From Bacteroidota bacterium (GTDB lineage: Bacteria > Bacteroidota > Bacteroidia > Flavobacteriales_C > GCA-002722245): DNA of 64,000 nucleotides. The notes beneath the pieces were generated by a model. The model did no database searches. It was given only the letters and a program-made list of their open reading frames with translations, and was not told the DNA's origin. This document shows positions 35,824 through 44,782 of the stretch, in pieces. Every line of letters begins with the position of its first letter. Positions within the stretch are counted from its first letter, which is position 1. The stretch is from the NCBI GenBank assembly GCA_026390935.1, contig JAPLEZ010000145.1, positions 143,961-207,960 on the forward strand, given 5' to 3'. The position numbers and the translations under genes were made by a program.

Positions 35824-35842
35824 ACACTTTTTTGTTTTCAAT

Positions 35843-35872
35843 TAATATCGTAATATTGCAATATAGATATAT
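35843..35872. promoter_or_regulatory. candidate ArsR operator
   Basis: An AT-rich imperfect inverted repeat around TATTGCAATA lies 10-30 nt upstream of the arsR start. Its size and position suit autorepression by the encoded ArsR protein. No consensus can be verified from one copy. Confidence 0.35.
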
Positions 35873-35876
35873 AGCA

Positions 35877-36206
35877 ATGGGAATTTCAAAAACCGAACAT
35901 TTTACCGAAAAGCAAAACGAACTGGCTTCTTTAATGAAGGCATTGGCACATCCAGCGCGTATTGCAATAATTGAGCATATCATAAAAGTAAACGCCTGCA
36001 TATGCAACGATATAGTGAACGAACTGCCGCTGGCCCAACCCACTATTTCGCAGCATTTAAAAGAGTTGAAAAACGCAGGGATCATCAAGGGAAATATTGA
36101 AGGAAATGCCATTTGTTACTGCATCGACGAAAAAGTGATTGCCAAATTGCAAAAAATATTTTCGGGTTATGAAATGAAAATTGAAAAGAAAAGATCTTGT
36201 TGTTAG
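35877..36206 (+). CDS. arsR: ArsR-family transcriptional repressor
   Basis: 109 residues from the ATG at 35877; an upstream in-frame ATG (35832) would extend into the probable operator and is not preferred. The winged helix-turn-helix is typical: LMKALAHPARIAIIEHI, then CICNDIVNELPLAQPTISQHLKELKNAG. The CIC pair at about residues 41-43 lies at the start of the recognition region, where As(III) is bound in classical ArsR (CVC), and the protein ends in CC. It probably represses the downstream arsenic genes in the absence of arsenite. Confidence 0.9.
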   Translation: MGISKTEHFTEKQNELASLMKALAHPARIAIIEHIIKVNACICNDIVNELPLAQPTISQHLKELKNAGIIKGNIEGNAICYCIDEKVIAKLQKIFSGYEMKIEKKRSCC

Positions 36207-36304
36207 ACTTAAAAATCAAAAAGATGAAATATTCATTATTCCAAAACGAAATAATTACAGATAATGAACATTCCATCTGACCCTAAAAATTAAATTATAT
36301 ACAG

Positions 36305-36778
36305 ATGAAACTATCCCAAATCAAAAACATTTTAACTTCTTTAGAAGCGGTTAATTTTGAATTACCAGACGGAACAATGGTTCCTGTGCATTATCATGTA
36401 ACGGAAGTCGGACAAATAACCAAAAACTTTATTGATTGCGGCGGCACCATCCGACAAGAAAAGAAAGTGAATTTTCAATTGTGGGAAGCCAATGATACCG
36501 ATCATCGCTTGGCGGCGCAAAAGCTTTTGAAAATTATTGCCCTTTCCGAAAAGGCTTTAAACATTGAAGATGCAGAGGTTGAGGTGGAATATCAAACCAC
36601 AACAATTGGCAAATACGGCGTGGAATTTAATGGAAAAAACTTTGAGCTGGTTTCATTAAGCACTGCTTGTTTGGCGAGCGACAGTTGTGGAATTCCTGCT
36701 GAAAAAATGAAACTGAATTTAGTGGATTTGGGAGCAAAGGAATCTTCTTGTTGTGCGCCTGGAGGCGGCTGTTGTTAA
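36305..36778 (+). CDS. DUF6428 family protein, arsenic-cluster associated
   Basis: 157 residues. The N-terminal half (VPVHYHVTEVGQITKNFIDCGGTIR, VNFQLWEANDTDHRL) matches the DUF6428 family, which is found next to arsR genes in Bacteroidota. The C-terminus is a thiol-rich tail (ESSCCAPGGGCC) that could bind As(III) or another soft metal. The exact function is unknown; binding or delivery of a metalloid is inferred from the tail and the neighbours. Confidence 0.75.
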   Translation: MKLSQIKNILTSLEAVNFELPDGTMVPVHYHVTEVGQITKNFIDCGGTIRQEKKVNFQLWEANDTDHRLAAQKLLKIIALSEKALNIEDAEVEVEYQTTTIGKYGVEFNGKNFELVSLSTACLASDSCGIPAEKMKLNLVDLGAKESSCCAPGGGCC

Positions 36779-36795
36779 CTTACATAGAGGCCGGG

Positions 36796-36888
36796 ATAGA
36801 TCCTGAAACAAGTGCAGGATGACATTAGCGGGCATTATCTGAAGAATATGGTTCACATTGGTCATCCTGAACTTGTTTCAGGATCTAT
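36796..36888 (+). repeat. hairpin element, stem type ii, conserved 37-nt core
   Basis: 28-bp stems (ATAGATCCTGAAACAAG followed by TGCAGGATGAC on the left; 36861-36888 on the right) with one mismatch flank a 37-nt core (36824-36860). The core begins ATTAGCGGGCATT and ends TATGGTTCACATTG. Each stem half also contains its own small inverted repeat (CCTGAA/TTCAGG). It lies between the DUF6428 gene and the phosphatase gene. Confidence 0.92.
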
Positions 36889-36921
36889 TTTCATTCTAAA
36901 TAATAATCAAAAAATAAAACC

Positions 36922-37533
36922 ATGAATACCCTTTTACCTTCTCTCGAAAGCTTCAGAAAAAAGCTTGATTTTTCAGTCATCTCTGATGAAAGAAAAATAA
37001 TTTTAAATGAATTGATCACCTACATTCAGCAGCAGCGTAATTCCGGCAAAGAAATTCACCTGAATTTTATTTGCACGCACAACAGTCGTAGAAGTCAGTT
37101 CTCCCAAATCTGGGCACAAACTGCCGCCTATTATTATGGGATAAAAGCCCATTGTTATTCGGGCGGAGTGGAAGTAACGGCATTTAATGAACGTGCCGTT
37201 GAATCTATAAAGCGGACAGGATTCAAAGTGGAAAAAAACGGAGAAGGCAATCCGAAATATTCGCTTTTTTTCTCTGATGATGCAGCGCCTATTATTGCTT
37301 TTTCAAAATTGTATGATGATGAAACAAGCGCGAAATCAAATTTTGCAGCAGTAATGACCTGTTCTCATGCCGATGAGAATTGTCCCTTCATTCCCGGTGC
37401 CGACAAACGCATTCCGGTGAGATATAACGATCCAAAAGCATTTGACGACACTCCTCTTGAAGTGCAAAAGTACGATGAGCGCTCAAAAGAAATTGCTACT
37501 GAAATGTTTTATATTTTTAGTCAAATATTATAG
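36922..37533 (+). CDS. arsenate reductase-like low-molecular-weight phosphatase
   Basis: 203 residues. The domain is of the low-molecular-weight protein tyrosine phosphatase/ArsC type, preceded by about 45 extra residues. The P-loop is FICTHNSRRSQFSQIW (CX5R-like, with Cys near residue 50). AVMTCSHADENCPFIPGADKR near residue 148 supplies further Cys residues for the thiol cascade. In this context it probably reduces arsenate to arsenite. It is followed 6 bp later by an aquaporin gene, as in arsenic operons that export arsenite through a channel. Confidence 0.82.
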   Translation: MNTLLPSLESFRKKLDFSVISDERKIILNELITYIQQQRNSGKEIHLNFICTHNSRRSQFSQIWAQTAAYYYGIKAHCYSGGVEVTAFNERAVESIKRTGFKVEKNGEGNPKYSLFFSDDAAPIIAFSKLYDDETSAKSNFAAVMTCSHADENCPFIPGADKRIPVRYNDPKAFDDTPLEVQKYDERSKEIATEMFYIFSQIL

Positions 37534-37539
37534 ACGCAA

Positions 37540-38172
37540 ATGAAAAAACATTTCCCTGAATTTCTAGCCACGTTTATTGTTGTGTTTTGCGGAACAGGTT
37601 CAATAATTATCAATCAAATTAGTGGCGGTATAATTGGTCATAGTGGTATTGCCGTGACGTTCGGATTGGTGATTATGGCGATGGTATATGCTTTTCCGAA
37701 AGCACAATTTAATCCTGCAGTATCATTGAGTTTAGCTCTTTTTGGCTTGTTGAATAAAGTCGACGCAGCGAAAAATATCGCGTTTCAGTTTGCAGGGGCT
37801 TTTGCAGCAAGTGTAGTATTAAAATTAATATTTCCAGAAGCACTAACATTAGGCGCCACTATTCCTTCCGGACCGCATATGCAATCGTTTATTTTAGAAA
37901 TATTTTTGATGTTTTTCTTGGTGTTGGCTGCGTTAAAAGTGGGTGAATATACCAAAGAAATTCAAGCTTTTACAGGAGTTGTAGTTGGCGGAGTAGTATT
38001 GCTGGAAGCCATGTTTGCCGGACCAATTAGCGGAGCATCAATGAATCCTGCGCGTAGTTTTGCTCCAGCTATTTTAAGCGGGAATTTGGATGGATTGTGG
38101 ATTTATTTAACGGCGCCTTTTATTGGAGCCATAGGAGCATTTATAGTTTGGAAATGGTTAAAAGAGATATAG
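37540..38172 (+). CDS. MIP-family channel (aquaporin/AqpS-like), probable arsenite efflux channel
   Basis: 210 residues with six membrane segments and both NPA motifs (FNPAVSLSLAL near residue 53, MNPARSFAPA near 168). MIP channels conduct water, glycerol or As(OH)3. The position directly behind an arsenate-reductase-like gene in an arsR cluster resembles the aqpS type of resistance, in which arsenite made in the cell leaves by diffusion. No ArsB or Acr3 pump gene was found nearby, which supports this reading. The end overlaps the haemoglobin gene by 19 bp. Confidence 0.85.
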   Translation: MKKHFPEFLATFIVVFCGTGSIIINQISGGIIGHSGIAVTFGLVIMAMVYAFPKAQFNPAVSLSLALFGLLNKVDAAKNIAFQFAGAFAASVVLKLIFPEALTLGATIPSGPHMQSFILEIFLMFFLVLAALKVGEYTKEIQAFTGVVVGGVVLLEAMFAGPISGASMNPARSFAPAILSGNLDGLWIYLTAPFIGAIGAFIVWKWLKEI

Positions 38173-39350: not shown

Positions 39351-40931
39351 ATGAAGAACTTTGTTGAAAAGCTGGATCATTTTTTCATTCATCCTAAACT
39401 TCACTCCAATATTGAAGAGTACGGAAGAGCCCGCATTTTACTGTATGCGATGATGATGACCACATTGTTTTCTGCTTCATATAGTACCTACTACGAATTA
39501 ACACATGAGAATATTCATATTGTAAAGCACGTCGCAAATATTGTTGGTGCTTTTACCGGATTGATAGGGATGATCCTTCTAAAGTTCATCTCAAAATTTA
39601 AAGTCACTTTTTTTTCAATGTTGGTGCTTGCGGATATTTTGGTGTTTACTAGCACTTTTTTTTCTGGTGGAATTTATTCGGTGGATTTACTGTGGATGGT
39701 GATTATTACCATGATAGGATTTTTGTTTGTAGGCAATAAGAGTGGAATTATTTTGTTGTTTACCGCATTGGCGTATTTTGCGGCTTTCTTCGCAATGGAG
39801 AATTTGGGCATTCATAATTTTGCAAAGGACAGTCTGGATTTAGGCGCTGGCTATAAGTTATACAATCTTATTTTTTTAGGAGGATTGGCTTCTTTCATCA
39901 CTTATTTTTTTGTGAGTGGAGCTGGTAAAATCAGAAAGGAGTTGGATGAGTTAAAGGAACGTCACGTAAAAAGTTTGGATTACAAATACCAACACATTAC
40001 TGAAAATGCAAACGAAATTATTGCATTGCACAGTGCAAATGGAGACACAACTTTTATCTCTTCTGCTATAAAATCAATTTTGGGTTATGAAGCAGAAGAA
40101 TTGCTGGGAAATAAATATGCTTTACTTTTAGGTGAACAGCTGGGGAACAAAGAATTGATGTGTGTTTCAAAGGATGGTAGAGAAGTGTGGTTGGAACTTT
40201 CATACAATCCCATTAAAGATGAAATGGGCAGCGGTGAAGTGTTTATTTCTATGGCGCGCGACATCAGTGCGAAAGTTTTAGAGAATCAGAAAATCACACA
40301 GCTGCGCAAGCAAATCGCCAATGATTTCCATGATGAAATGGGCAATAAACTGGCTGCCATTACTTTGAATTCAAATATTTTGTCCATCAAAACAAAAGAT
40401 AATCCGGAGGTGACAGATATTATTTCTAAAATTGAAAGCACTTCTAAATCTTTATACCAGCAATCTCGAGATTTCATTTGGTCTATTGACGCTAAGAGTG
40501 ATGAACTGCGGGAAATATTTTCTTACCTGAGAGATTTCGGGGACGATTTTTTTCATTCTCTTCCTGTTAATTTTTTGGTGGAAAGCAAAGGCTTTAGTGA
40601 GCAGGAAAAAATTATATTGCCCATGTATTGCGGTCGGCACATCATTTTAATTTTTAAAGAAGCGTTGACAAATTCTGCAAAGCACTCGAAATGTAAAAAT
40701 GTAATTTTGTCGCTGGCAATTGAAAAAGACGCCTTTACCATTAGCGCTAAAGATGATGGAAAGGGAATTTCAGCAGAAGCAAAGGCGGGAAAAGGATTGA
40801 ATTCCATTCGTGAACGCGCTAAGAATATTCATTGCGAATTGAATGTCGTTACAGATGCTTCAGGCACAAAAATTTCTCTGCGAGGAGAACTACCCAAAAT
40901 GGGTGAGATAGTATCATCAATTCAACAGTAG
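39351..40931 (+). CDS. membrane-bound PAS sensor kinase, HisKA_3 (NarX) type
   Basis: 526 residues. The first 190 residues hold six membrane segments. A PAS domain spans about 208-310 (ITENANEIIALHS ... MARDISAKV). The dimerisation motif ITQLRKQIANDFHDEMGNKLAA has the phospho-acceptor His at 327, in the HisKA_3/NarL-partner class. The HATPase domain shows LIFKEALTNSAKHSKC and AKDDGKGISAEAKAGKGLNSIRERA. It pairs with the LuxR-type regulator 9 bp downstream. Confidence 0.92.
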   Translation: MKNFVEKLDHFFIHPKLHSNIEEYGRARILLYAMMMTTLFSASYSTYYELTHENIHIVKHVANIVGAFTGLIGMILLKFISKFKVTFFSMLVLADILVFTSTFFSGGIYSVDLLWMVIITMIGFLFVGNKSGIILLFTALAYFAAFFAMENLGIHNFAKDSLDLGAGYKLYNLIFLGGLASFITYFFVSGAGKIRKELDELKERHVKSLDYKYQHITENANEIIALHSANGDTTFISSAIKSILGYEAEELLGNKYALLLGEQLGNKELMCVSKDGREVWLELSYNPIKDEMGSGEVFISMARDISAKVLENQKITQLRKQIANDFHDEMGNKLAAITLNSNILSIKTKDNPEVTDIISKIESTSKSLYQQSRDFIWSIDAKSDELREIFSYLRDFGDDFFHSLPVNFLVESKGFSEQEKIILPMYCGRHIILIFKEALTNSAKHSKCKNVILSLAIEKDAFTISAKDDGKGISAEAKAGKGLNSIRERAKNIHCELNVVTDASGTKISLRGELPKMGEIVSSIQQ

Positions 40932-40940
40932 TTTTGTAGT

Positions 40941-41561
40941 ATGGGAAACAGAATAGTGATTATTGAAGACAACAAAGACATTAGGGAAGCCTTTACTCTT
41001 TTATTGAATTTGCGAGATGATTTTTTAGTGGTGAATGCCTATTCCAATTGTGAAGATGCACTAAAAAATATAGAAGAAGATGCTCCACATATCGTATTGA
41101 TGGATATTGATTTGCCGGGTATGAGCGGTATTGAGGGCACTAAAATCATCAAGAAAAATTTGCCTTCCGCCAACATCATCATCATCACTGTTTTTGAAAA
41201 TGGCAAAACCGTTTTTGATGCGCTGTGTGCAGGTGCTACAGGCTATTTGACAAAGAATAGCGATAAGGACCGGCTCATGAGTGCCATCGACGAAGTGATT
41301 AAAGGCGGTGCGCCAATGAGCAGTAAAATTGCGCGATTGGTGGTACAGTCGTTTCAAAAAAACAGGAACTCACCCCTCACTTCCCGTGAAACGGAAATAC
41401 TTTCGCAAATCGCAGAAGGGAAGAGCTACACGAATATTGCCGATACCATTTTCATTTCAAAAGAAACAGTGAAATACCATATCAAAAACATCTACATCAA
41501 ATTGCAGGTGAACAATAAAGCCGACGCAATTAAAAGAGCGAACGAGGATAGGTTGATTTAA
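40941..41561 (+). CDS. NarL/LuxR-family response regulator
   Basis: 206 residues. The receiver domain (2-120) has acidic residues IIEDNKD, the phospho-acceptor D55 (VLMDIDLPGMSG) and the conserved Thr and Lys (IITVFENGK, YLTKNS). The C-terminal LuxR helix-turn-helix (about 140-205) has LTSRETEILSQIAEGKSYTNIADTIFISKETVKYHIKNIYIKL. It is probably phosphorylated by the kinase directly upstream. Three identical-layout palindromic sites just downstream (41896, 42023, 43160) are good candidates for its binding sites. Confidence 0.95.
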   Translation: MGNRIVIIEDNKDIREAFTLLLNLRDDFLVVNAYSNCEDALKNIEEDAPHIVLMDIDLPGMSGIEGTKIIKKNLPSANIIIITVFENGKTVFDALCAGATGYLTKNSDKDRLMSAIDEVIKGGAPMSSKIARLVVQSFQKNRNSPLTSRETEILSQIAEGKSYTNIADTIFISKETVKYHIKNIYIKLQVNNKADAIKRANEDRLI

Positions 41562-41882
41562 CCCACCCCTAGCCCCTCCAAGGAGGGGAATTAGTTACTG
41601 AACCATATTCAAATCATTTTCAGGAAATGCCAGCTAATTAATTCCCCTCCTTGGAGGGTGATGACCCAGCATTTGGCAAATCGGCTTTTTTATTGAGAAT
41701 GCTCCGCGCTCACGGCTTCGCCGGCGCGGAATCTTTTTGTTTAGAGCTTAATACGAGGCGAAGCATCTACACAAATAAATACCGCGCCGGCGAAGCCGTG
41801 AGCGCGGAGCGTGAAATCTTAGTTATTTGCCGATTTGCCAAATGCTGGGACATCACCCCTTGGAGGGGTTAGGGGTGGGTTG
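41560..41882. repeat. nested inverted-repeat structure (about 320 bp)
   Basis: Four stems are nested. An outer 24-bp stem pairs 41560-41583 with 41858-41881 (one mismatch; AACCCACCCCTA end). A side hairpin pairs 41582-41593 with 41639-41650 around a core that on the minus strand contains ATTAGCTGGCATTTCCTGAA and GAATATGGTTCA, the same core as in the type i and ii hairpins. A 30-bp stem pairs 41656-41685 with 41829-41858 (one mismatch). The innermost GC-rich 29-bp stem pairs 41701-41729 with 41782-41810 perfectly. No gene is encoded. It reads as hairpin elements inserted into one another. Confidence 0.92.
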
Positions 41883-41895
41883 ATTCAATAAAAAC

Positions 41896-41941
41896 TACCC
41901 AATTCAGGGAGTACAACTTTTTCATGTGGGCAGTAGTTTCG
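41896..41941 (+). promoter_or_regulatory. promoter 1 of the TACCC-motif set
   Basis: The 18-bp motif TACCCAATTCAGGGAGTA (41896-41913), preceded by AAAAAC, lies 20 nt upstream of TAGTTTCG (41934-41941), one mismatch from TAnnTTTG. It stands in front of the small ORF at 41946. The same layout occurs before both LamG genes. Confidence 0.6.
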
Positions 41942-41945
41942 TTGC

Positions 41946-42017
41946 ATGCAAAACAAACTCTTCCATTTCTTTCTTTTACTCCTTTCCATTTTTCTTTTGA
42001 TCATTTCGAAGCCCTAA
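41946..42017 (+). CDS. possible small hydrophobic peptide (23 residues)
   Basis: ATG to TAA, encoding 23 residues that read MQNKLFHFFLLLLSIFLLII followed by SKP. It is a single hydrophobic helix, either a membrane peptide or an orphan signal-peptide remnant. Support comes from the motif-bearing promoter whose -7 box ends 4 nt before the ATG. Without that promoter I would not report it. An alternative is a degraded third LamG/T9SS gene whose signal peptide alone survives. Confidence 0.4.
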   Translation: MQNKLFHFFLLLLSIFLLIISKP

Positions 42018-42022
42018 AAAAC

Positions 42023-42069
42023 TACCCAATATGGGGGGTACTGCTAAGGGTGTTCAGGACGTAGCTTTG
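42023..42069 (+). promoter_or_regulatory. promoter 2 of the TACCC-motif set (first LamG gene)
   Basis: The motif TACCCAATATGGGGGGTA (42023-42040), preceded by AAAAAAC, lies 21 nt upstream of a perfect -7 element TAGCTTTG (42062-42069). The gene starts at 42095. Confidence 0.7.
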
Positions 42070-42094
42070 GCCCATCACTAAAAAACCAGAAACT

Positions 42095-43099
42095 ATGAAC
42101 AAAAAAATTACTTCTTTATTTTTCACATTATTCGCTGCAACGTTTGTGATGGCGCAAACTGCGCCAGTATTGCACTTTAAAATTAAAGGCAATATAGCCG
42201 ATTCATCTACAAACAGTTTTGCCACTACAGCCATTGGTTCGGTGACGTATACCAATGGTCGTCACGGAGATGCAAGCAGCGGATTAGAAACAACAGCTGG
42301 AGCAATACAGCTCTCTAATGCTATGGGCGCATATAAAGTTTCTTTCCCTTTTACTTTTGCCACATGGATGAAGATCAATGGTTTCAAAACAGTAAATCCA
42401 CTTTTTACTTCTGAAGACGATCAAACATCTTATAGTGGAATATGGGTGCAGGTGCTTGCTGACGGAACGGTAGCTGCAAACGTGGGCAATGGCGGTTTGC
42501 CAAATTCTACAGGAAGAAAATCGGCTGTCACAAATTCGCCTGTAATTACCAATACTAATGCTTGGTATCAAATTGTGGTGGTAGCCAATTCCATTTCCAA
42601 TTTTGCAATTTATGTGAATGGCGTGTTGGCTCCATCTACTTTGTCGGGTTCGGCAACAAGTATGGTGTATCTCAATGGCATGAACAGTTTTGGAAAAGTG
42701 GGTTCGTACAACAAAGGCAGCTCAAGCAATTATTATTTTGATGGTGTAATTGATGAAATGGCTTTGTGGTCAACGGGGATCAATGAAAGTGAATTGGATG
42801 CTATTTTATTAGAAGGCACAACCAATTACAACACTGCTGTTGAAAACAAGGAGGAAGTGAATTTTTCCTTTTACCCGAATCCATCCAATGATAATATTTC
42901 TATCACACTGCCTTCCTCTTTCAATGGTGAAAGCACCAGCATTAAAATTTACGATGCTTTGGGTGCTTTAGTTAAGCAAGAGCAGATTACTGTTTCAGGT
43001 GTTCATGATTTATTGATTCAGGATTTGGCGAAAGGAGCTTACGTGCTACAAATTCAAAACGATAGAGGAAGTGCTAATAAAGCGCTTATCGCTTATTAG
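42095..43099 (+). CDS. LamG-domain protein with T9SS sorting domain
   Basis: 334 residues. A signal peptide (ending VMAQT) precedes a LamG/concanavalin-like domain at about residues 25-245 (FTFATWMKIN, WYQIVVVANSISNFAIYVNGV, FDGVIDEMALWSTGI). The last 75 residues are a T9SS type A sorting domain (FSFYPNPSNDNISI ... KGAYVLQIQNDRGSANKALIAY). It should be secreted and surface-attached; LamG domains bind glycans or proteins. It shares its promoter motif with the next LamG gene and has its own terminator. Confidence 0.88.
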   Translation: MNKKITSLFFTLFAATFVMAQTAPVLHFKIKGNIADSSTNSFATTAIGSVTYTNGRHGDASSGLETTAGAIQLSNAMGAYKVSFPFTFATWMKINGFKTVNPLFTSEDDQTSYSGIWVQVLADGTVAANVGNGGLPNSTGRKSAVTNSPVITNTNAWYQIVVVANSISNFAIYVNGVLAPSTLSGSATSMVYLNGMNSFGKVGSYNKGSSSNYYFDGVIDEMALWSTGINESELDAILLEGTTNYNTAVENKEEVNFSFYPNPSNDNISITLPSSFNGESTSIKIYDALGALVKQEQITVSGVHDLLIQDLAKGAYVLQIQNDRGSANKALIAY

Positions 43100-43117
43100 T
43101 GATTGTCTAAATTTTTT

Positions 43118-43149
43118 AAAAGCTCCTGTTAAAAACAGGGGCTTTTTTT
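43118..43149 (+). terminator. intrinsic terminator after the first LamG gene
   Basis: AAAAGCTCCTGTT pairs with AACAGGGGCTTTT around a short A-rich loop, followed by T residues. Confidence 0.9.
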
Positions 43150-43159
43150 ATTTAAAAAC

Positions 43160-43206
43160 TACCCACATTGGGGGATACAGCATCCCTGCTTCTGCATGTA
43201 GATTTG
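43160..43206 (+). promoter_or_regulatory. promoter 3 of the TACCC-motif set (second LamG gene)
   Basis: The motif TACCCACATTGGGGGATA (43160-43177), preceded by AAAAAC, lies 21 nt upstream of a perfect -7 element TAGATTTG (43199-43206). The gene starts at 43226. It follows directly on the terminator of the first LamG gene, so the second gene is transcribed independently. Confidence 0.7.
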
Positions 43207-43225: not shown

Positions 43226-44782
43226 ATGAAAAAACAATTACTCACATTAATGCTCATTGCTTTTTTATGCAATGGTTCTTTCGCTTTTAACAAAGCTATC
43301 AACACCTATTCTTCTGGTTATGGTGCTACTTCCACGTATCCTTTAACAGGAGTATGTGCTTTTACACTTGAAACCTGGTTCAATGGTTCATCAGGAACAA
43401 CGTACGCTCGATTAATTAGTTTTTCTAATTATGCATTTGAAATTGCTGGTGGAGGAGGAACAATTAGTATTTATGATGGATCCTGGAGAGCTACTGGTGT
43501 TACTGGAATGGGTAGTGGCTGGCATCATGTAGCGGTTACCAATGACCTAACGAATTTTGTTGTGTATGTGGACGGAGTGCAGGTATATACCAAAGCTTCT
43601 GTTGCAAGAGATTTTACAGGACAAGTGATGAATATCGGACACGATGCTAAAGTTCATACTGCCAATCAGAGATTTCCCGGGAAATTCGATGAAGTTAGAG
43701 TTTGGAACAGAGCTTTATCTGCGATAGAAATTGCTATTGTAAAAACCAAGCAAGCGTTAGGTACTGAAAGTGGTTTGGTGGTGTATTATGATTTTAACGA
43801 CGGAACAGGAACAAATAAAGTGAGCAACACACATCATTTAACCCTTGCAAGCTCTCCAGCTATTATCACCACCAATTTCATCGACTATATCAAAGATTGG
43901 GGCATGTCGTACGATGGTACAGATGATAGAACTTATTTGGCAACACCTATTACAGGCAACAACAATTTCACTTTCGAAACGCAATTTAAAACTACATCAA
44001 CAAATCCTTCAACTCATAGCCGATTTATTAGCTTTCCATCCTACCTATGTGAAGTAGCTATTGTAAATGGAGTGATACAATCATACATGGGCTCAGGAAC
44101 CTGGGTAGCTTGTTCTGGAAGCGGATTTAACGACGGACAATGGCATCACTTGGGAGTTACAAAAAATGGAACAGCAGTAACCATTTACGTTGATGGTGTT
44201 GTTGTAGGAACAAGATCCGCAACACTCAATCTATCTAGCAACATGTATTTTGGCGGGACTTCAGTTTCAACAGATTATTTTGTAGGAACTTTGGATGAGA
44301 TCAGAATTTGGAATATTGTAAGAACTAAGGATGAAATCGGACTAAATTTTAATACCGAGTTGGCTGGCAATGAAACGGGTTTAGTAGCTTATTGGGATTT
44401 CAATACAGCAACTGGAGCAACAAATATTAGTAATATGGTTAATTCTGGGACAGCCTTGACACGAGCTGGTGCTGGAGGCTCAAACAATTATCCGCAATTT
44501 GTCGATGCCACAAAAAATGAAATTGCAACTTCAACCAATGAAATTTTATCAGCAAATGAATCTGTGCTTACAGTGTATCCAAATCCGTTTACTTCAGTAA
44601 TTACTTTGAACATACCTTCAGTAAATAAGGTAGTGGTGATGGATGCAGCTGGTAAAGCGGTTTTTTCGGTAAATAATTCGGGTTCACAAATTGATTTGTC
44701 GTCGTTGAATGCCGGAACATATTTCATGAATGTTTATAGCGATCAAGCAGTGCAAACCGCTATTGTAGTGAAACAGCAATAA
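43226..44782 (+). CDS. double LamG-domain protein with T9SS sorting domain
   Basis: 518 residues. A signal peptide (ending GSFAF) is followed by two LamG/concanavalin-like domains at about 22-210 and 225-420, each with the pattern FTLETWF, GWHHVAVTNDLTNFVVYVDGV and FDEVRVWNRALS. The C-terminus (about 440-518) is a T9SS type A sorting domain (VLTVYPNPFTSVITLNIPS ... AGTYFMNVYS). It is likely a surface adhesin or glycan-binding protein. It uses the same promoter layout as the preceding LamG gene. Confidence 0.88.
   Translation: MKKQLLTLMLIAFLCNGSFAFNKAINTYSSGYGATSTYPLTGVCAFTLETWFNGSSGTTYARLISFSNYAFEIAGGGGTISIYDGSWRATGVTGMGSGWHHVAVTNDLTNFVVYVDGVQVYTKASVARDFTGQVMNIGHDAKVHTANQRFPGKFDEVRVWNRALSAIEIAIVKTKQALGTESGLVVYYDFNDGTGTNKVSNTHHLTLASSPAIITTNFIDYIKDWGMSYDGTDDRTYLATPITGNNNFTFETQFKTTSTNPSTHSRFISFPSYLCEVAIVNGVIQSYMGSGTWVACSGSGFNDGQWHHLGVTKNGTAVTIYVDGVVVGTRSATLNLSSNMYFGGTSVSTDYFVGTLDEIRIWNIVRTKDEIGLNFNTELAGNETGLVAYWDFNTATGATNISNMVNSGTALTRAGAGGSNNYPQFVDATKNEIATSTNEILSANESVLTVYPNPFTSVITLNIPSVNKVVVMDAAGKAVFSVNNSGSQIDLSSLNAGTYFMNVYSDQAVQTAIVVKQQ

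Follow-up and report, generated by a model that had tools for sequence, protein, structure and literature searches.

A probable NarL/FixJ-type two-component regulon with bipartite operators before its own regulator gene and T9SS LamG genes in a Bacteroidota bacterium

In the genome of a Bacteroidota bacterium (GenBank assembly GCA_026390935.1) three copies of one motif, each followed at almost the same distance by a -7 box, lie next to a gene for a LuxR-type response regulator. This raises the question whether the copies are operators of that regulator and, if so, which genes it controls and with which sign. The window, i.e., the whole stretch of 64,000 nucleotides that was analysed (contig JAPLEZ010000145.1, positions 143,961 to 207,960 of the forward strand), contains the following genes at this locus, with all coordinates counted from the first letter of the window:

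39351 to 40931, + strand: sensor histidine kinase, 526 aa (hydrophobic N-terminal half, PAS, HisKA_3, HATPase_c)
40941 to 41561, + strand: NarL/FixJ-type response regulator, 206 aa (receiver and GerE/LuxR HTH)
41946 to 42017, + strand: tiny ORF, 23 codons, MQNKLFHFFLLLLSIFLLIISKP, with one predicted membrane span
42095 to 43099, + strand: LamG1, 334 aa (Laminin_G_3 and T9SS type A tail)
43226 to 44782, + strand: LamG2, 518 aa (two Laminin_G_3 and T9SS type A tail)

The kinase was recognised by HisKA_3 (2.4e-8) and PAS (1.3e-7) and ends about 10 bp 5' of the regulator gene, and the pair is kept in three species. The regulator matches Response_reg (PF00072, 2.8e-26) and GerE (PF00196, 4.3e-18), and VraR, DesR and NarL are its closest relatives of solved structure. 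The T9SS C-terminal sorting domain was found in both LamG proteins by PF18962 and TIGR04183, so that the downstream genes, the tiny ORF and two genes for LamG proteins with sorting tails, are as a first-pass annotation of this DNA had described them. Further upstream (35832-38172), what looks by eye like an arsenic-type cluster is found, with an ArsR-like regulator, an arsenate-reductase-like protein, an aquaporin-like protein and a cysteine-rich small protein.

The three sites, at 41896, 42023 and 43160, have the common motif AAAAACTACCC-N6-GGG-NN-TAC and belong to a family of 28-nt direct repeats with 79-82% identity:

41890 to 41914, + strand: operator 1, AAAAACTACCCAATTCAGGGAGTAC; site 41896 is AAAAACTACCC-AATTCA-GGG-AG-TAC
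42017 to 42041, + strand: operator 2, AAAAACTACCCAATATGGGGGGTAC, overlapping the stop codon of the tiny ORF by its last base; site 42023 is AAAAACTACCC-AATATG-GGG-GG-TAC
43154 to 43178, + strand: operator 3, AAAAACTACCCACATTGGGGGATAC; site 43160 is AAAAACTACCC-ACATTG-GGG-GA-TAC

The first-pass annotation had placed these sites correctly, each with AAAAAC directly on its 5' side, but its formula, TACCC-N8-GGG-N-NTA, leaves 2 mismatches at all three of them: N8 should be N6, and the 18-bp form that fits every site is TACCC-N6-GGG-NN-TA. A pattern scan of the 3.76-Mb genome gave 3 exact matches to AACTACCCANNNNNGGGNNTAC, all at this locus, and allowing 2 mismatches added 2 matches genome-wide versus 10 for the reversed control. 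The motif shared by the three sites is not a product of chance. Nor did the genome contain the many unlinked copies that would have spoken against the annotation; the exact motif is confined to the locus. No operator of such kind was found for Bacteroidota in a literature search of open-licence papers, and it may be described elsewhere.

A fourth site was found directly before the regulator gene itself:

40887 to 40909, + strand: fourth operator, GAACTACCCAAAATGGGTGAGAT, within the 3' end of the kinase gene

This site, at 40891, is composed of AGAACTACCC-AAAAT-GGGTGAGAT, has a degenerate right arm and lies in the last kinase codons, with its -7 box four bases 5' of the regulator ATG. When a position matrix was built from operators 1-3 of two congeners (G002 and G003) alone, and hence from no sites of the 40891 type, it ranked the three window operators first to third (48.5, 45.4 and 44.6 bits) and site 40891 fourth (25.3 bits), the fifth-best of 127,892 window positions scoring 10.5. 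A sequence model covering both operator and box gave E values of 1e-13 to 1e-11 for the four window sites, which fit by construction, the model having been trained on the window plus G002 and G003; its next match had an E value of 0.1. The arrangement of operator, box and regulator gene is also present in G002 and G003, and a site occupies the same place in G037, a genome of another family. The codons GAA CTA CCC AAA at the end of the kinase gene are identical in three species; among the conserved Leu and Pro codons of the kinase only 23% are identical across the three. CTA makes up 5% of Leu codons and CCC 15% of Pro codons. Since the fourth operator stands directly before its gene, the regulator probably controls its own expression, and autoregulation is common in NarL/FixJ-type two-component systems. 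The regulon of the first-pass annotation is supported as to motif, regulator and surface genes and was incomplete in having overlooked site 40891.

The four promoters have the following -7 boxes, with distances counted from the T of TACCC:

40929 to 40936, + strand: -7 box of the regulator promoter, TAGTTTTG, at T+38
41934 to 41941, + strand: -7 box of the tiny ORF promoter, TAGTTTCG, at T+38, one mismatch to TAnnTTTG
42062 to 42069, + strand: -7 box of the LamG1 promoter, TAGCTTTG, at T+39
43199 to 43206, + strand: -7 box of the LamG2 promoter, TAGATTTG, at T+39

The distance from operator to box is nearly fixed at all four sites, and TAGTTTCG, TAGCTTTG and TAGATTTG start 20-21 nt 3' of the 18-mer, the spacing that had been noted before. 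Apart from the single mismatch in TAGTTTCG, all boxes agree with the Bacteroidota sigma-A consensus TAnnTTTG, which spans -12 to -5 in Flavobacterium psychrophilum (PMC9723704). Given that placement, the operators extend from about -52 to -32 with their centre near -42. No box is accompanied by a TTG -33 element, and the operators cover its place. This geometry is that of an activator in contact with the polymerase, which makes activation the likelier sign. A regulator that binds the sites and represses, or acts with both signs (e.g., activating the LamG genes and limiting its own gene), is an unlikely alternative: repression would not need an almost fixed distance between operator and box at all sites, the boxes lack a TTG element, and polymerase-contacting activators are usually centred near -42, even though an operator overlapping the -33 region could also seat a repressor and the degenerate right arm of the autoregulatory operator may act differently. 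In the window and in G002 alike, transcription of the regulator gene and of the tiny ORF is predicted to begin at the A of the start codon ATG, and leaderless mRNAs would therefore be expected for both genes. Only 5.5% of the mRNAs with mapped starts are leaderless in F. psychrophilum (PMC9723704).

The two congeners G002 and G003 have retained the gene order of kinase, regulator, tiny ORF and two LamG/T9SS genes. Orthologues of the kinase are 86% (G002) and 70% (G003) identical and those of the regulator 99 and 91%. The linker and DNA-binding part of the regulator is identical at 80 of 81 positions in every pair of the three species, and its near invariance while the kinase drifts to 70% counts in favour of the regulon. 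LamG1 has orthologues in G002 (75%) and G003 (62%) and in no other of the 10 family genomes, and LamG2 orthologues are also present in these two. In the tiny ORF, 23-24 hydrophobic amino acids are kept in both congeners, the changes are mostly in third positions and the pairwise dN/dS values are about 0.10, 0.13 and 0.31, which, within only 23 codons, is suggestive of coding conservation.

All three operators and their boxes have likewise been retained in G002 and G003, with the boxes at T+38/39. The right arms AGGGAGTAC, GGGGGGTAC and GGGGGATAC are specific to their sites and each is kept across the three species, and this speaks for selection on every one of the sites. The other seven family genomes have neither a regulator orthologue nor a LamG1 orthologue; of the 10 family genomes, the three with the regulator also have the motif and the LamG1 gene, as the proposed check of co-conservation would have it. 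Across the class (395 genomes) the motif is present in three copies in each of the three species and in one copy in G001; in three further genomes its occurrence is no higher than that of the reversed control. The copy in G001, which belongs to the same genus, is a perfect operator 3 (L061:3868-3890) before a kelch-repeat lipoprotein gene, in a genome that has no regulator orthologue, and no -7 box is present at the usual distance from it.

Between the regulator gene and operator 1 there is a repeat of another kind:

41560 to 41885, no strand assigned: nested inverted-repeat element, 326 bp, with arms of 45, 30, 31 and 24 nt

It has 43 matches listed in the genome, itself included. The gap from the regulator stop codon to TACCC is 335 nt in the window and much shorter, 116 and 16 nt, in G002 and G003, and for this reason the element is most simply explained as an insertion of the genome's repeat family, outside the regulon. 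The presence of a real repeat element next to the 28-nt repeats, with the identity these show among themselves, could suggest that the three motif copies are just recent promoter duplications or a repeat element without regulatory role. This is extremely improbable, as the likeness stops at the operator, the approximately 20 nt before the box differ among the sites, each site has kept its own right arm in three species and the motif is absent elsewhere in the genome.

If the sites are operators of the adjacent regulator, similar sites could be looked for beside its homologues. Indeed, regulators with approximately 40-60% identity in other families of the class are accompanied by similar inverted repeats 37-40 nt 5' of a -7 box, standing before the regulator gene and/or before lipoprotein and T9SS-cargo genes. 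In G037, whose regulator is 60% identical, a perfect 9-5-9 palindrome (GTACTACCC-ATATA-GGGTAGTAC) precedes a LamG/T9SS gene, with no recognisable box at T+38; the kinase tail of the same genome contains CAACTACCCGTTTCAGGTAGTAC, with TAACTTTG at T+37, before the regulator gene, and an unlinked site, AAACTACCCATTAGGGGTAGTAC (AAACTACCC-ATTAG-GGGTAGTAC), with TAATTTTG at T+38, lies before an fn3/GEVED/T9SS gene. A paralogue in G002 has variant sites before the regulator gene and before a T9SS gene. TACCC-N4/5-GGGTA with boxes at T+37 to +39 was found in G054 and G093 before a pair of genes, the first for a lipoprotein and the second for a T9SS protein; G093 has an operator-type site before the regulator gene in addition, and the kinase tail of G054 contains a similar repeat, coding for IPHMGN, with no box noted. 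In G365 an unlinked site stands before a lipoprotein and T9SS pair, and in G092 a site 3' of the regulator gene precedes a lipoprotein/T9SS-like pair, where a strict box is absent. No operator-type site was found near several other homologous regulators (e.g., those of G243 and G217).

When the three species of the window locus were excluded, 7 sites followed by a box at a distance of 36-40 nt were counted in 22.5 kb beside homologous regulators, versus 1 in 378 kb elsewhere (Markov shuffles averaged 0.04); this figure is descriptive, since some of the sites were already known when the pattern was drawn up. Before that, a palindrome scan with no preset pattern (arms of 9 nt, a spacer of 5 nt, 8 or more pairs, a box 17-21 nt further on) had given matches for G054, G093 and the G002 paralogue, and every one of them flanked the regulator gene. 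In G037 (E 0.043) and G093 (E 0.069) the operator plus box model also gave first rank to sites flanking the regulator; these scores are weak, and the location of the sites adds weight to them.

Two further observations belong to the same set of genomes. G049 has CAAAACTACCTGATTTGGTAGTTTT and a box before its regulator gene and a second site (L207:9351), CAACTACCAAATGTGGTAGTTG with TAATTTTG at T+38, before a gene for a 113-aa protein with no Pfam match. In addition, the kinase C-termini IPHMGN, ITRMGEER and IPNMGD (L098, L096 and L135) resemble the LPKMGE of the window and can be read as translated operator-like repeats.

It could also be asked whether the motif is the target of an unlinked transcription factor, with the adjoining NarL-type regulator as a bystander. 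The class does contain many promoters of the type TACCC-N6-GGGTATTG, some of them before iron-uptake-like genes. These have another spacer and a TTG 3' of the palindrome, however, the window motif matches none of them, and G000 has zero matches, whereas the N4/N5 type adjoins this regulator family in several taxonomic families, and the family genomes without the regulator, with the one exception of G001, are also without the motif. A bystander role of the regulator is accordingly very unlikely. The N6 promoters with a -7 box (L174-L203) gave about 90 matches in 60 of 395 genomes, versus 15 for the control, with clusters in G131 and G190; some of the proteins encoded downstream are by eye FeoA-like or iron-related lipoproteins, which would fit an iron regulator. 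Since a strict palindrome search of the 395 genomes (TACCC-N4..6-GGGTA and box) returned mostly these different promoters, it was rejected as support and kept only for matches by a homologous regulator.

The reading of the first-pass annotation, in which the neighbouring regulator is the factor for the motif, is thus favoured by co-occurrence and by the same operator type beside homologues, from which binding may be inferred. We consider it likely, on the grounds of sequence comparison, that the locus is a self-contained two-component regulon in which the NarL/FixJ-type regulator activates four promoters, i.e., those of its own gene, the 23-aa peptide and the two LamG genes. The membrane histidine kinase would sense a signal and phosphorylate the regulator, which, probably as a dimer, would bind the bipartite operator of about 23 bp, ACTACCC-N5/6-GGG-NN-GTAC. 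With the right arm of the operator occupying the place of the -33 element, the bound regulator would recruit sigma-A polymerase to the TAnnTTTG promoters. Its own promoter would have the operator embedded in the last kinase codons and probably give rise to a leaderless mRNA. The remaining targets would be the membrane peptide and the two T9SS-exported LamG proteins, for which a role in adhesion or as lectins may be supposed. Our guess for the peptide, by analogy, is that it might feed back on the kinase in an MgrB-like manner; we know of no sequence relation between the two. It is conceivable, though rather doubtful, that such modules exist class-wide in Bacteroidia, each dedicated to a single set of exported cargo, be it lipoprotein, LamG or other T9SS proteins, and having an autoregulatory operator in the last kinase codons, where tails of the form (L/I)P-x-M-G would be kept for the DNA and not for the protein, with peptide feedback on the kinase in the genus of the window.

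Among known systems, NarXL, DesKR and VraSR likewise combine a HisKA_3 kinase with a receiver-GerE regulator, and the locus has the NarL/FixJ features of receiver plus HTH, pairing with a kinase and (predicted) inverted-repeat operators close to the target promoters. The regulator scores below the cut-off of every named equivalog shown, reaching 123.9 bits against 250 for NarL and staying far below for MadR and MctR, and a transfer of known function is thereby ruled out. The left arm TACCCA agrees with the NarL heptamer TACYYMT (PMC4886647) at positions one to six, the seventh being A or C, and the operator arms are separated differently from those of the NarL 7-2-7 sites. In contrast to the three systems, the sensor here is a membrane protein with PAS, the target genes code for T9SS surface proteins and the operator for autoregulation lies within kinase codons. 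A tiny membrane peptide encoded within the regulon of its kinase is also found with PhoQ, whose inhibitor MgrB, a membrane protein of 47 aa, belongs to the PhoPQ regulon (PMC8404706).

What is known in this locus is the NarL-type two-component system with local targets; new are the operator, its location in the kinase gene and the T9SS cargo. The operator within kinase codons would be a case of regulatory DNA shaping the end of a protein. To our knowledge, hardly any regulators have been described in Bacteroidota that act on individual T9SS cargo genes, and none was found in a literature search of open-licence papers. As regulator, operator, geometry and targets can be read at one locus and checked in relatives, the operator could serve to find the regulons of many orphan pairs of kinase and regulator. 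PorXY-SigP is likewise a Bacteroidota two-component system tied to the T9SS; PorX is reportedly not of LuxR type and works via an ECF sigma factor on the genes of the secretion machinery, whereas the window has a GerE-domain regulator, placed at cargo genes with sigma-A boxes.
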